Assembly (NCBI RefSeq): GCF_000730165.1
Contig: NZ_CP022110.1
Coordinates: 434,001 to 498,000 of the forward strand
Source: Nitrospirillum viridazoti CBAmc
GTDB lineage: Bacteria; Pseudomonadota; Alphaproteobacteria; Azospirillales; Azospirillaceae
Direction of reading: 5' to 3'
DNA: 64,000 nt
The notes under the pieces: model-generated
Database searches by the model: none
What the model saw: the letters and a program-made list of their open reading frames with translations, nothing else
What the model was told of the DNA's origin: nothing
Part shown: positions 12,491-62,420 of the stretch, piece by piece
Numbering within the stretch: position 1 is the first letter of the stretch
How the letters are laid out: the number at the start of each line of letters is the position of its first letter
Made by a program: the position numbers and the translations under genes

Positions 12491-12504
12491 GTTTTGTGCC
12501 CCCC

Positions 12505-12620
12505 CAAGCGCCGGGCGCCGGCATCCGCCGGCTTGGCTTCCTCGCTCCGCCCTGCGGTACTCGCTGCGGGGCCGGCGGTCGCCGGCCACAACGGCACGGG
12601 CCAAAGCCCCGCGCCGTTGG
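12505..12620 (+). repeat. Dispersed structured repeat, copy A
   Basis: Three hairpins in order: GCCGGC-ATCC-GCCGGC at 12517-12532, then a conserved linker with TTGGCTTCCTCGCT and GCCCTGCGGT, then GCCGGC-GGTC-GCCGGC, then a longer stem closed by CAACGGC and GCCGTTG. The same order with different but still pairing stems is found at 39801-39915, and partly at 41373-41470 and 61828-61943 on the other strand. It fills the gap between the rplT terminator and pheS. Confidence 0.8.
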
Positions 12621-12689
12621 TAGTATCCGCCCCCAAGATTGCCCCACTGCCCACCGACCCACTGCCCACCGAGAAGACGGATCGTCGCG

Positions 12690-16426: not shown

Positions 16427-18115
16427 ATGAAGTTTTTCCGGGATCTGCCCATCATCCAGAAGCTGCTGCTGCCCCTGATCCTGATGGGTCTGGTGACGCT
16501 CGGCACCTCCCTCTACACCCTGTCGCAGATGAACACGGGTGCTGTGCAATACCAGCACCTGCTGCGCGGCGAGGCGGAGGCCCTGAAGGCCATCGACCGG
16601 GCCAATGGCGCCGCCGCCAACATCGGCCGCATCAGCTACATGATGCTGGCGGAGACCGACAAGTTCATCATCGACAGCATGAAGGATGAGATCGGGCAGC
16701 AGGCCAGCGACCTTGCCAAATACCTGGATAGTGTCGCCCGCCTGAACCCAGGCTCCAAGGACGACCTGGCCATGGCCCGGGACGAGTTCAAGGCCATGAT
16801 GAAGTTCGCGGAAGAGGCGCGCGAACAGATGCTGGCGGGCAACACCAAGGCCGGCGCGTCCACCTTGACCGATGAGTTCGACATCCGCCTGTCCAAGCTG
16901 CTGGACCGGCTGACCGTCATCACCAAGGCGGTGGACGAGAATTTGAGCAAGGGCGAGGCCGCCGCCAAGGCCCGCAACGAACGCACCTACTGGGTGACGC
17001 TGGCGGGCGGCCTGTCGGGCGCCGTGCTGATCATGGCGCTGGCGCTGTGGATCGCCTGGGCCAGTGTGTCCCGCCCGCTGAAGCGCATCGTCGACACCAT
17101 GACCGCGCTGGCCGACGGCGACCAGAACGTGGAGGTGCGGGCGACCGACCGGCGGGATGAGATCGGCGCCACCGTGCGGGCGCTGCGCATCTTCCAGCGC
17201 ACCATGGTGGAGGCCGACACCCTGCGTCATGAGCAGGAGACGATGAAGGCCCAGGCCCAGGCCGAACGCCTCGCCGCCTTGGCCCAGCTGGCCGATGAGT
17301 TCGAGGCCAGCATGAACCAGGTGGTGGAAGGGGTGGCCGGCGCTGCTGACCGCATGCAGGGCAACGCCAAGGGCCTGTCGGCCATTGCCGAGCAGACCAA
17401 CCACCAGACGCTGGCGGTCGCCGGCGCGGCGGAGGCCGCGGCCGGCAACGTCAACACCGTGGCAGCGGCGGCCGAACAGCTGTCCGCCAGCATCCAGGAG
17501 ATCGGCCGGCGGGTGGAGGAGTCCTCGCAGATCGCCCAGAACGCCGTGGTGGAGGCGGAGCGCAGCAACCACACTGTGAGCGGCCTGGTGGAGGCGGCGC
17601 GCAAGATCGGCGACGTGGTGCGCCTGATCAGCGATATCGCCAGCCAGACCAACCTGCTGGCCCTGAACGCCACTATCGAGGCGGCGCGGGCGGGTGAGGC
17701 TGGCAAGGGCTTTGCTGTCGTGGCCAGCGAAGTGAAGACCCTGGCGACGCAGACGGCCAAGGCGACGGAGGAGATCAGCGCCCAGATCGGCGAGATCCAG
17801 GCCGTGGCCGGCAGCGCCGCCGGCGCCATCCACGGTGTCAGCGGCACCATCGGCCGCATCAGCGACATCGTCACCACCATCGCCGCGGCGGTGGAGCAGC
17901 AGGGTGCCGCCACCAACGAGATCGCCAGCAGCGTGGCCCAGGCCGCCGCCGGCACATCCGACGTGTCGAGCACCATTGGCCAGGTGACCCGCGCCGCCAG
18001 TGAGACCGGCACCATGGCCGTGGACGTGCTGCACGCTGCCCAGGACCTGGTCAGCCAGTCCGATCACCTGCGCCACCAGGTGGCGGGCTTCCTGACCAAG
18101 GTGCGCGCGGGCTGA
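16427..18115 (+). CDS. Methyl-accepting chemotaxis protein
   Basis: This 562-residue receptor starts at the ATG at 16427, which has GGGGGAGG nine bases upstream; an ATG at 16394 is less likely. It has a membrane helix at about 12-32, a periplasmic ligand domain of about 155 residues that looks helical (four-helix-bundle type), a second helix at about 185-210, a HAMP domain (about 211-265), and the cytoplasmic signalling domain with the conserved tip [19 protein letters not shown]. It would pass an unidentified chemical signal to CheA/CheW. The gene stands alone and converges on the DUF1223 gene; no che genes are nearby. Its tip is very similar to that of the globin-coupled receptor at 59374. 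Confidence 0.93.
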   Translation: MKFFRDLPIIQKLLLPLILMGLVTLGTSLYTLSQMNTGAVQYQHLLRGEAEALKAIDRANGAAANIGRISYMMLAETDKFIIDSMKDEIGQQASDLAKYLDSVARLNPGSKDDLAMARDEFKAMMKFAEEAREQMLAGNTKAGASTLTDEFDIRLSKLLDRLTVITKAVDENLSKGEAAAKARNERTYWVTLAGGLSGAVLIMALALWIAWASVSRPLKRIVDTMTALADGDQNVEVRATDRRDEIGATVRALRIFQRTMVEADTLRHEQETMKAQAQAERLAALAQLADEFEASMNQVVEGVAGAADRMQGNAKGLSAIAEQTNHQTLAVAGAAEAAAGNVNTVAAAAEQLSASIQEIGRRVEESSQIAQNAVVEAERSNHTVSGLVEAARKIGDVVRLISDIASQTNLLALNATIEAARAGEAGKGFAVVASEVKTLATQTAKATEEISAQIGEIQAVAGSAAGAIHGVSGTIGRISDIVTTIAAAVEQQGAATNEIASSVAQAAAGTSDVSSTIGQVTRAASETGTMAVDVLHAAQDLVSQSDHLRHQVAGFLTKVRAG

Positions 18116-39755: not shown

Positions 39756-39769
39756 ACCTTAAACGCGTA

Positions 39770-39795
39770 GCCTTTGATCGTGACCGATCAAAGGC
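39770..39795 (+). terminator. Hairpin after the TonB receptor gene
   Basis: GCCTTTGATCG, loop TGAC, CGATCAAAGGC: a perfect 11-bp stem 15 bases past the stop. There is no U-tract, so it may work as an mRNA 3' stabiliser or a Rho-assisted terminator. Confidence 0.5.
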
Positions 39796-39800
39796 CCCTC

Positions 39801-39915
39801 AGTCGCCGGGCGCTGCCATCCGGCAGCTTGGCTTCCTCGCTCCGCCCTGCGGTGCTCGCTCCGGCGGACGCGGTCGCGTCCTACAGCGGCACGAGTCAAA
39901 GCCTTGTGCCGCTGG
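39801..39915 (+). repeat. Dispersed structured repeat, copy B
   Basis: Hairpins in order: GCTGCC-ATCC-GGCAGC at 39812-39827, linker with TTGGCTTCCTCGCT and GCCCTGCGGTGCTCGCT, GGACGC-GGTC-GCGTCC, and a long stem CAGCGGCAC/GTGCCGCTG. Compared with copy A the stems have changed on both sides while loops ATCC and GGTC and the linker are kept. Confidence 0.82.
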
Positions 39916-39989
39916 TATTAGCGAGTCTTGTTTTGCACGGGGTGCCGTCCCGACCTCCCATCCGGGGCGGCACCCAGGGAGTGGTTTTC

Positions 39990-41357: not shown

Positions 41358-41372
41358 GGAGCGTAGCGACTA

Positions 41373-41470
41373 GGCCGCGACGGCGGCCGCCGGAGCCTTT
41401 CGGGGAACGGAGTGGACTGAAAGGCGAGGATGAGCCAAGGGGCGTATGCCCCGCCGGCGTTTGAGGCGAA
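41373..41470 (-). repeat. Dispersed structured repeat, divergent copy D
   Basis: Read on the minus strand: CGCCTCAAACGCCGGC, GGGGC-ATAC-GCCCC, CTTGGCT, a diverged linker, then GGCCGC-CGTC-GCGGCC. It keeps both short hairpins of the other copies but has a rearranged middle. It ends seven bases before the rpoH stop codon. Confidence 0.65.
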
Positions 41471-59373: not shown

Positions 59374-60744
59374 TCACGCGCTTTCCCGCAAGCGGGCGGC
59401 GAAGGTTTGCGCCCCTTCGCGCAGGCGCTGGGCCTGAAGCCCCAGGTCGCCGGATGACTGGCTCAGACGGCCGGCCGCCGCCCCCGTCTGCCGGGCGGCG
59501 TCGGTCACGTGGCTGATGTTGGCCGAGACGCTGGCGGTGCCTGTGGCCGCCTGGGCGATGCTGCGGGCGATTTCCCGGGTGGCGCTGCTTTGTTCCTCCA
59601 CCGCACTGGCGATGGAGGTCGCGATCTCATCCATGCCGGCGATGACGCTGCCGATCTGGCTGATCGCTGACACCGCTTCTTCCGACACCTGGCGGATGGC
59701 GCTCACCTGGGCGGAAATCTCCTCCGTCGCCTTGGCGGTCTGGGTGGCCAGGGTTTTGACTTCGCCCGCCACGACGGCGAAGCCCTTGCCCGCCTCGCCG
59801 GCCCGCGCCGCCTCGATGGTGGCGTTCAGGGCCAGCAGGTTGGTCTGGCTGGCGATGGTGTTGATCAGGCTCAGCACGTCGCCGATGCGCGCAGCGGCGG
59901 CCACCAGGCCGCGCACCGCGCCGTCGGTGCGCCGGGTCGTTTCCATGGCCTGCGCCGAAATCTTGTTGGATTGCACGACGCGGGCGCTGATCTCGGTGAT
60001 AGAGGCCGACAGTTCCTCGGTGGCGCTGGCCACCGACTGGACATTGCTGGCGGCGCTGCCGGCGGCCGTGTCGGCCTGCGTGCTTTCCGCCAGCGACTGG
60101 TCGGCCGCTTGCGTCAGCAGGCTGGCGTCCTGGCGCAGCCCGCCCACGGCCCCGCCGATGCCATCAATGACGCCGGCCATGGTGTCGGTGAAATTCTGGG
60201 CCAGGCTTTCCAGCACCCGCTGCCGGTCCTTGCGCCCTTCCTCGATATAGACGGAGATGGCCAGATCCATGTCCAGCATGACGGCGCGCAGCAGGGCCTG
60301 TTGCAGGCGGGCCACGTCCAGGCGCGGCCGCAGCCAGGCGAAGGGCCCGCGCCGGTCCATGCGCGTCACCATGGCCAGCAGCTCGCCGGTGATGAAGGCA
60401 TAGCCGCCGATGTACCAGCGCGGCTCCAGCCCCAGGCGGTTGTGGGCGCGGCCGACGCGGATGACGCTGTCCAGGTAGGTGGCGTCGAAGGTGCCGGTCA
60501 CGATGGCCGCCCAATGGCGCATCTGCATGTCCTTCACGTGCGACAGGTGCTTGTCGCCGCCGAAGAGTTTGAAGATCTCCGGCTGGTTCCGCAGCCTGGC
60601 GTAGAACCGGTCCAGAATCGCGGGCAACTCGCGTTCGACATGCGGGCGCAGGCCGCGCAGCGCGTCCCGGGTCGCGGCGTCGATTTCCAGGAAGGCCAGG
60701 CGTTCCTGGAACTGGCGCTGCATGGAGTCGTCGCCGGCGGTCAT
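59374..60744 (-). CDS. Globin-coupled chemoreceptor (aerotaxis sensor)
   Basis: The start is the ATG at 60744, six bases behind AGGAGA, giving 456 residues; an open 174-base extension is not family-like. Residues 10-165 form a sensor globin: [15 protein letters not shown] start, [15 protein letters not shown], and the proximal heme ligand His101 in [19 protein letters not shown]. There is no membrane helix. The C-terminal half is a chemoreceptor signalling domain with tip [19 protein letters not shown]. By analogy with HemAT it senses O2 in the cytoplasm and controls motility. An FNR-type box lies about 130 bases upstream. Confidence 0.92.
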
Positions 60745-61827: not shown

Positions 61828-61943
61828 CCGCCGGCGCTTGAGGCGCCTAAATAGGACGCGACCGCGTCCGCCGGAGCGAGCACCGCAGGGCGCAGCGAGG
61901 ACCAGCCAAGGGGCGGATGCCCCGCCGGCGCTTGAGGCGCCTA
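61828..61943 (-). repeat. Dispersed structured repeat, copy C with a partial tandem head
   Basis: Read on the minus strand: GGCGCCTCAAGCGCCGGC, GGGGC-ATCC-GCCCC, TTGGCT, linker with TCCTCGCT and GCCCTGCGGTGCTCGCT, GGACGC-GGTC-GCGTCC, then the head AGGCGCCTCAAGCGCCGGC again. It fills the whole gap between the convergent Nudix and hypothetical genes and includes the stop codon of the latter. Confidence 0.82.
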
Positions 61944-62420
61944 AAAAAGCGCGTCGATCGCGTCCTGATCCAGCGTGGCCTGTTCGGTGGCGCCGTGGAC
62001 GATGGCGCTGCCCCGGTCCACCAGCTTCTGCAGGCGCTGCCAATAGTCTGTCGCCAGGAAGCCCAGCATCTCCGGCGAATCCTGTTCCGCCTCCAGCGCC
62101 ACCACCGCCTCGGCGATGGTCGCGTCCAGCTCTTCCACCACGCGGTCGAAGGGCTGGCGGTATTCCGGCGGCACATGGTCGTAGGCGTCGATGGCCAGTG
62201 CCGCGAAACCCAGGCCGCTGCCCTCAAAATGCTGCTTGTAGGTCTTGGGGTGCCAGGCGCGGATCTCGTCCAGCATCTCCGGCATGTCGCCCAGCATGGA
62301 TAACAGCATGATCACTTCGTTGAAGTGATTGAAGTAGTCCGTCGACAGCAGGGTGTTGCCGTCTATCGTCGTGTCTTTGACGAGGGTGCGGTAGTGGGCG
62401 AGGGTATCGGCATCAGGCAT
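61941..62420 (-). CDS. Hypothetical helical protein
   Basis: A 159-residue acidic protein from ATG 62420, with no signal peptide or membrane helix. It begins ADTLAHYRTLVKDTTIDGNT and contains NHFNEVIMLLSMLGDMPEML and PFDRVVEELDATIAEAVVALE, all predicted alpha-helical. I do not recognise a family. Regular codon use and clean start support a real gene. The stop codon lies inside the edge of repeat copy C. Confidence 0.7.
   Translation of the reverse strand: MPDADTLAHYRTLVKDTTIDGNTLLSTDYFNHFNEVIMLLSMLGDMPEMLDEIRAWHPKTYKQHFEGSGLGFAALAIDAYDHVPPEYRQPFDRVVEELDATIAEAVVALEAEQDSPEMLGFLATDYWQRLQKLVDRGSAIVHGATEQATLDQDAIDALF

Follow-up and report, generated by a model that had tools for sequence, protein, structure and literature searches.

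The window analysed here, a 64,000-nucleotide stretch of the Nitrospirillum viridazoti CBAmc genome (contig NZ_CP022110.1, positions 434,001 to 498,000), contains four copies of one dispersed repeat, referred to as A to D, which a sequence-only reading had placed at 12505-12620, 39801-39915, 41373-41470 (minus strand) and 61828-61943 (minus strand) and assigned to a single plan. All four are found at these places, with the stems and loops described by that reading. To its plan are now added an upstream hairpin (HP0), terminal inverted repeats (TIRs) and a duplicated target site of the form TNA. The features are as follows.

12504..12622, plus strand: copy A, between the ribosomal protein L20 and PheS-like genes, without a recognisable HP0 or left end
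12517-12532, 12570-12587 and 12589-12619, plus strand: hairpins HP1, HP2 and HP3 of copy A
39759..39761, plus strand: left target-site duplication of copy B, TTA
39762..39917, plus strand: copy B, full-length element with a degenerate left end, HP0, HP1, linker, HP2, HP3 and the right end GGTA
39770..39795, plus strand: HP0 of copy B, a GCCTTTGATCGTGACCGATCAAAGGC hairpin (from folding; relatives have the same kind of hairpin)
39812..39827, plus strand: HP1 of copy B, GCTGCC-ATCC-GGCAGC (from sequence, pairing table and folding)
39866..39881, plus strand: HP2 of copy B, GGACGC-GGTC-GCGTCC (from sequence, pairing table and folding)
39884..39914, plus strand: HP3 of copy B, CAGCGGCACGAG / CTTGTGCCGCTG, whose 3' arm continues into the right TIR (from folding)
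39918..39920, plus strand: right target-site duplication of copy B, TTA (from the TNA rule)
41371..41465, minus strand: core of copy C, in the gap where an aminotransferase gene and a sigma-factor gene converge; its middle hairpin is of the alternative form, CCTTTC-AGTCCACTCCGTTCCCC-GAAAGG
61852..61936, minus strand: core of copy D, a few nucleotides beyond the point where the minus-strand open frame 61941-62420 stops

Copy A carries the stems GCCGGC-ATCC-GCCGGC and GGCCGGC-GGTC-GCCGGCC, and its third stem, CAACGGC/GCCGTTG, corresponds to CAGCGGC/GCCGCTG in copy B, which bears out the compensating pair change first noticed between these two copies. HP1 of copy C is GGGGC-ATAC-GCCCC, followed by a differing middle linker, and the stems of copy D are GGGGC-ATCC-GCCCC and GGACGC-GGTC-GCGTCC. 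A 24-nt direct repeat (TTTAGGCGCC...GGCGG) accompanies the core of copy D, one unit overlapping the beginning of the core and the other lying immediately behind its end. Elsewhere in the window, apart from the four copies, there is a 193-nt inverted repeat (17606-17798 and 59694-59886, about 42 kb apart) that is 86% complementary.

The complete plan reads TNA-TIR-HP0-CTCA-HP1(loop ATCC)-HPM-HP2(loop NGTC)-HP3-TIR-TNA, and the terminal inverted repeats are imperfect (TACCA.../...TGGTA). It is also seen in other genera, in which TNA and an end of the form TAYCA... are followed by HP0 (of the TTGATCGTGACCGATCAA type in most copies) and CTCA, an outer set of GCC/GGC pairs encloses HP1 (loop ATCC or GTCC), HPM has the loop ATGG or ACGN, HP2 has the loop AGTC, GGTC or CGTC, and the 3' arm of HP3 forms the right end, ...GGTA, before the second TNA. 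HPM is a third internal hairpin in an otherwise equal plan; Nitrospirillum copies have in its place a short conserved linker, CGCCCTGCGG, or a hairpin whose loop is of the AGTCCACTGCGTTCCCC type. Pattern matching divides 93 copies of the N. viridazoti genome into 31 with the linker, 46 with this hairpin and 16 with neither. At loci L037, L066, L072 and L074 of Azospirillum sp. B4, TTGG is replaced by a longer, hairpin-capable stretch, CCCCTATGCGTGTCTTGGGG.

Many copies lack one or both ends. Only 6 of 97 copies in the N. viridazoti genome retain both terminal hairpins, and 55 of 97 have neither under a rule that requires a perfect stem of 8 bp, by which some of the 55 copies scored as end-less still show an imperfect HP3. 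No target-site duplication is visible in these 55 copies, and their origin by transposition is presumed. Their cores are largely intact (49 of the 55 have an HP1 with 5 bp or more, and 46 of the 55 a perfect HP2), and such cores could have a function of their own. Cores also occur in close association: at G000:C1 ~200,900-201,500 (L008, L298), a small head-to-tail array of cores joined by TAGTCGCTACGCTTCCCTCTTATGCCTCA adjoins a copy of the other orientation, and similar close pairs are present in genomes G001, G003 and G005. In A. ramasamyi (G034), terminal hairpins additionally stand alone as 38- and 48-bp palindromes, for instance at C4:398616-398653 and C7:39670-39717.

The repeat is abundant throughout the genus. 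A blastn search of the 7.38-Mb N. viridazoti genome located 41 places (the best 40 of 146 candidates being scored), and a covariance model (R1) built from 34 copies gave at least 149 matches at E<=0.01 among the best 150 of 18,685 candidates, with rough E-values. The search of this genome and related ones with such a model, proposed as a check on the initial reading, returned matches in all seven Nitrospirillum genomes, at least 107 to 150 in each when the best 150 per genome were scored. Across the Azospirillaceae, matches were obtained in at least 48 of 82 genomes and in 7 of 13 genera (best ~54 scored per genome). The conserved-linker pattern is more narrowly distributed: it recovered 67 stretches from the GTDB genome collection, 65 of them in Nitrospirillum or Azospirillum sp. 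B4 and two in one MAG. In the plasmid and phage collections searched, the Nitrospirillum copy had no match; the Azospirillum form of the repeat matched 18 plasmid records. The repeat was undescribed among the top-ranked results of a literature search that covered papers outside subscription.

Several lines of evidence indicate that the repeat is a transposed element. Full-length copies, and only these, have imperfect TACC.../...GGTA ends; the unit has no gene of its own and is too short to hold a transposase gene (156 bp in copy B), and end-to-end pairs of 156 bp are found in A. ramasamyi. Among 243 distinct elements with HP1, 20 of the 21 two-ended copies could be kept for a comparison of their flanks under a strict end rule that ignores N, and the TNA on both sides was equal in 15 of these 20, whereas 20,000 shuffles averaged 6.8 and never exceeded 14; N was mismatched between the flanks in 5 of 20 and complementary rather than equal in 1 of 20. 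In agreement with a target-site duplication, a filled site in A. ramasamyi, GCGGTC-TTA-[element]-TTA-CTTCTG, is matched in three relatives, A. lipoferum 4B, A. oryzae and B510, by an empty GCGGTC-TTA-CTTCTG. This is the one clean junction among three A. ramasamyi sites compared, and its left anchor comprises only six bases because the preceding sequence has diverged. Within Nitrospirillum, copy B is absent from the orthologous place in five of six relatives (G001-G005), where the empty sites show only an approximate TTA, and the sixth (G006) has a copy with the other linker type. Copy A is present in all seven genus genomes, in decayed form in G004 and G005. Such ends, with TIR and TNA duplication, fit a transposon that is inserted through a staggered cut. 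Thus, from the terminal inverted repeats, the TNA duplication and the empty site, we conclude with a probability of about 0.8 that the repeat is a non-autonomous, MITE-like transposable element of roughly 150-185 bp, bounded by imperfect TIRs and made up of four to five hairpins in a row. Mobility of the family is well supported.

The copies are distributed unevenly with respect to genes. According to a simple codon-usage gene caller, none of 102 cores in the N. viridazoti genome lies mostly inside a called gene and none lies between divergent genes, an arrangement that accounts for 8 of the 34 gaps of at least 60 nt in the window. Relative to the element, the neighbouring genes are oriented (-,-) in 49 cases, (+,-) in 36 and (+,+) in 17, and where the gene upstream is on the same strand (n=53), its stop codon precedes the core by a median of 12 nt. 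Seven annotated plasmid copies from Azospirillum are more varied, with two in convergent, three in co-directional and one in divergent gaps and one within a predicted hypothetical protein. Targeting of stop codons was considered and rejected: the TNA coincides with a stop codon in 22 of 60 end tests (16 of 43 right ends and 6 of 17 left ends), where TNA availability predicts a mean share of 0.36, calculated over TNA sites from the stop to +60, a slightly different stretch from that of the stop-codon count. These 60 belong to 138 end tests, the other 78 having no same-side stop in range (55 of 98 right ends, 23 of 40 left ends); the nearest stop was taken where there were several. Insertions within genes would likely be lost, and a stop codon usually has the form TNA itself, TAA or TGA closing 153 of 185 called genes. 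TNA availability together with this presumed loss of harmful insertions would therefore gather copies at the 3' ends of genes without any stop-seeking mechanism.

The protein that moves the element would be encoded elsewhere. Searches for an autonomous partner by the end pattern gave 20 hits in the N. viridazoti genome against 16 in the control, with no inverted pair at a spacing of 0.7-3 kb, a weak search because the hits barely exceed the control; in A. ramasamyi, 83 hits against none in the control included no autonomous partner, and the only end pair spaced about 1 kb apart is a copy of the repeat interrupted by an insertion sequence. At L338 (G034:C1 ~1,448,403-1,449,413), an 852-bp IS5-like element with a TTA duplication sits inside a repeat copy. 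As for a possible derivation from IS5/IS1031 or Harbinger transposons (TNA/TWA target), which would show in shared ends, no TNATACC/GGTATNA pair was found at 30 of 53 PF01609 loci in three genomes, and three groups of PF01609 elements have ends other than those of the repeat. Two candidate partners were discarded on the same ground, namely a 381-aa resident insertion-sequence element with the ends CAGGGGAATCGCTTGAAG / CACGGCAATCGCTTGAAG and an IS5-like element with the ends GAGTGCG/GAGCGCC.

The repeat had initially been likened, as one possibility, to a REP/RAYT element. On such a reading, a RAYT (Y1 HUH) transposase would move a palindrome of the REP/BIME type in the form of single-stranded hairpins. 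Copy number, position at gene ends and variable yet complementary stems do match reports on REPs (PMC2817692; PMC3733652), and TAC or CTAC follows HP2 directly in 35 of 93 N. viridazoti copies, reminiscent of a GTAG tag. However, the proposed search for a RAYT-type transposase yielded no PF01797 (Y1 transposase) match at E<=0.01 in any of the seven genus genomes, whereas 6 of 14 control genomes matched, five of them over the cut-off. CTAC is not kept in other genera, as judged by eye, and the unit consists of several hairpins rather than of a single 20-40-bp palindrome with GTAG beside it. Together with the TIR and the TNA duplication, these results speak against the REP/RAYT likeness, and movement by a RAYT is highly improbable.

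Standard pairing prevails in the hairpins. The observation that stems vary while pairing and loops are kept in hairpins 1 and 2 extends from the window to an alignment of 34 copies, in which 98.0% of 510 cells hold standard pairs; shuffling lowers this share to 75.8%, and sliding the partners by one to three columns lowers it to 30-52%. Both sides have changed at 10 of 15 pairs, and the covariation score of 0.503 compares with 0.115 in shuffles (reached in none of 500) and with at most 0.095 for slid partners; the observed number of pair types was reached in 6 of 500 shuffles. Likewise, in 27 copies from other genera 97.7% of 611 cells pair and both sides have changed at 15 of 23 pairs, a count reached in 2 of 500 shuffles (pair types, 30 of 500). 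Among the copies of the genus, 130 of 149 have a perfect HP1 and 138 of 160 a perfect HP2. The 1,953 pairs of HP1, HP2 and HP3 include 10 G-T, 24 A-C and 18 other mismatches, distributed on the plus strand as 2 G-T and 10 A-C in HP1, 7 and 9 in HP2, and 1 and 5 in HP3; these counts comprise only HP1 of the 6-4-6 form, with orthologous copies counted apart, and leave out candidates with less than 60% pairing (22 HP2 and 4 HP3); only nine HP3 were kept. RNA normally tolerates many G-U pairs, and the scarcity of G-T therefore argues for a constraint or a repair process acting on DNA hairpins, at least in addition to any role as RNA. The palindromy with few G-T pairs points to such a process at least as much as to RNA.

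A rival reading takes the repeat for a structured RNA at the 3' ends of mRNAs, a stabiliser or terminator under selection that would be mobile only incidentally. The pairing and covariation agree with it, as do folding z-scores of -5.6, -4.5 and -9.2 and, in the N. viridazoti genome, the position of the cores shortly after stop codons and never between divergent genes. The orientation of the co-directional copies (49 to 17) and the excess of A-C over G-T on the plus strand (24 to 10) point weakly to the minus strand as the one transcribed together with the upstream gene, and in one copy from another genus (L134, 1584-1617, minus strand) HP0 with the T-run behind it is scored as an intrinsic-terminator-like site. 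On the other hand, G-T and A-C are both rare, copy A has decayed in two relatives and copy B is missing from five, and no Rfam family matches at its gathering score: every Rfam match listed lay well below that of its family, and those to CC3552 and NsiR1 were set aside as chance. An RNA element of this kind is possible, though doubtful.

A comparison of orthologous copies bears on how the stems change within the proposed transposable element. The comparison covers 21 sites and 45 strain pairs, whose flanks are on average 94.4% identical. Arm 1 differs between strains at 12 of these sites and arm 2 at 10; outside the stems, 12 sites show a difference in the two unpaired bases after CTCA, 12 in the first base of loop 2 and 4 in loop 1. 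Only 5 sites differ in their middle type, which counts against wholesale replacement of copies. HP1 and HP2 are unlinked in the N. viridazoti genome, their 26 and 21 alleles forming 66 combinations in 85 copies (mutual information, p=0.70), and none of six field pairs falls below p=0.06 (middle type versus arm 2, p=0.0625). These analyses cover 163 of 198 elements that could be parsed with an HP1 of at least 5 bp; a set parsed for the short linker (61 of 198 elements, 17 pairs at 7 sites) includes 21 N. viridazoti copies, in which most fields are likewise unlinked and one of 13 field pairs lies below 0.05 (a base next to arm 2, p=0.025). The lack of linkage between HP1 and HP2, together with the turnover at orthologous sites, suggests that some paired changes arrive by exchange between copies, and part of the apparent compensatory change is probably hairpin exchange of this kind. 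Hairpins that behave like exchanged cassettes need not have passed through two successive mutations, and their exchange would leave orthologous copies with different but mostly palindromic stems, as observed. Reassortment of hairpins between copies is supported, and the argument that compensatory change signals selection on a folded nucleic acid stands only in part: the element is dispersed, of a mobile type and foldable, with pairing kept through changes on both sides, whereas the inference to selection is weakened by the turnover of stems and unpaired bases and by the independence of HP1 and HP2. That stem alleles are mostly perfect palindromes still calls for a structural constraint.

Covariation would require neither selection nor exchange between copies if template switching copied one arm onto the other inside a hairpin (quasi-palindrome correction). 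The few intermediate mismatches, the predominance of C-G to G-C flips and the orthologous pair L004 and L060, whose 86-nt cores are identical apart from stem 1, one base of loop 2 and the final base, are what such a process would leave. Yet the commoner stem alleles recur at many sites, the polymorphic unpaired positions turn over as often as the stems (12 of 21 in both fields), a turnover that point mutation could also produce instead of exchange, and in copy A the difference between G003 and G002 forms one contiguous tract across HP2. Template switching is accordingly a distinctly unlikely explanation. More tentatively, the element might be defined by its hairpin architecture and not by its sequence, in that a factor reads the fixed loops (ATCC, ATGG and NGTC) on almost any GC-rich paired stems, the hairpins serving as swappable cassettes and the shape being kept while the sequence is continuously reshuffled; this proposal appears rather unlikely.

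The MITE-like reading can be summarised as a sequence of putative steps. A DDE-type transposase encoded elsewhere would make a 3-nt staggered cut, old copies would shed their ends and persist as an HP1-linker-HP2 core, and gene-conversion-like exchange between copies would swap hairpins. What the Azospirillaceae have here is a mobile-repeat family for which a target, ends and an empty site can be proposed. The family also offers a caution, in that covariation among dispersed repeats need not reflect RNA selection when whole hairpins may be exchanged. With many copies in closely related genomes, how palindromic repeats stay palindromic while changing their sequence becomes directly testable.

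Known small repeats offer several points of comparison. The ERIC elements and RU-1 and RU-2 of enterobacteria are MITE-like intergenic repeats of about 100-170 bp, to which the Azospirillaceae repeat is similar in description rather than by comparison of sequences; the target of ERIC is TA, in contrast to TNA here. The pneumococcal BOX and RUP are small interspersed chromosomal repeats that are modular, hairpin-forming and presumed non-autonomous. Compared with them, again by description and not by sequence, the repeat has another host and a TNA duplication, and in its chain of hairpins the loops are fixed while the stems can be interchanged. The 852-bp IS5-like element of A. ramasamyi encodes a DDE transposase, uses mostly TTA/TAA targets and resides in a repeat-rich genome, but it ends in GAGTGCGTAACA / GAGCGCCTAACA, unlike TACC, and TCA and TGA serve as further targets of the repeat.

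REPs and REPINs with their RAYT share palindromic units, variable complementary stems and high copy number with the repeat, and REP stems are described as staying complementary while their sequence changes (PMC2817692). Unlike them, the repeat has no RAYT found in the genus genomes and no consistent GTAG tag, and it has TIRs, a TNA duplication and a multi-hairpin unit. The alphaproteobacterial CGTC REPs, which include A. lipoferum among their hosts, are described as single palindromes of 20-40 bp with a terminal unpaired CGTC, an 8-9-bp stem opening with AT and a CCA-like tail, with no dedicated transposase known (PMC3733652). They share with the repeat an alphaproteobacterial distribution, heterogeneous stems and loops and the lack of a known transposase, but the repeat is a chain of hairpins with TIRs, a distinction that follows the published description rather than a comparison of consensus sequences (PMC3733652). 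As a miniature hairpin-chain element with a TNA target duplication, the repeat is a new family of the ERIC, BOX, RUP and MITE kind, placed beside ERIC, BOX and RUP by its organisation and not by sequence comparison.
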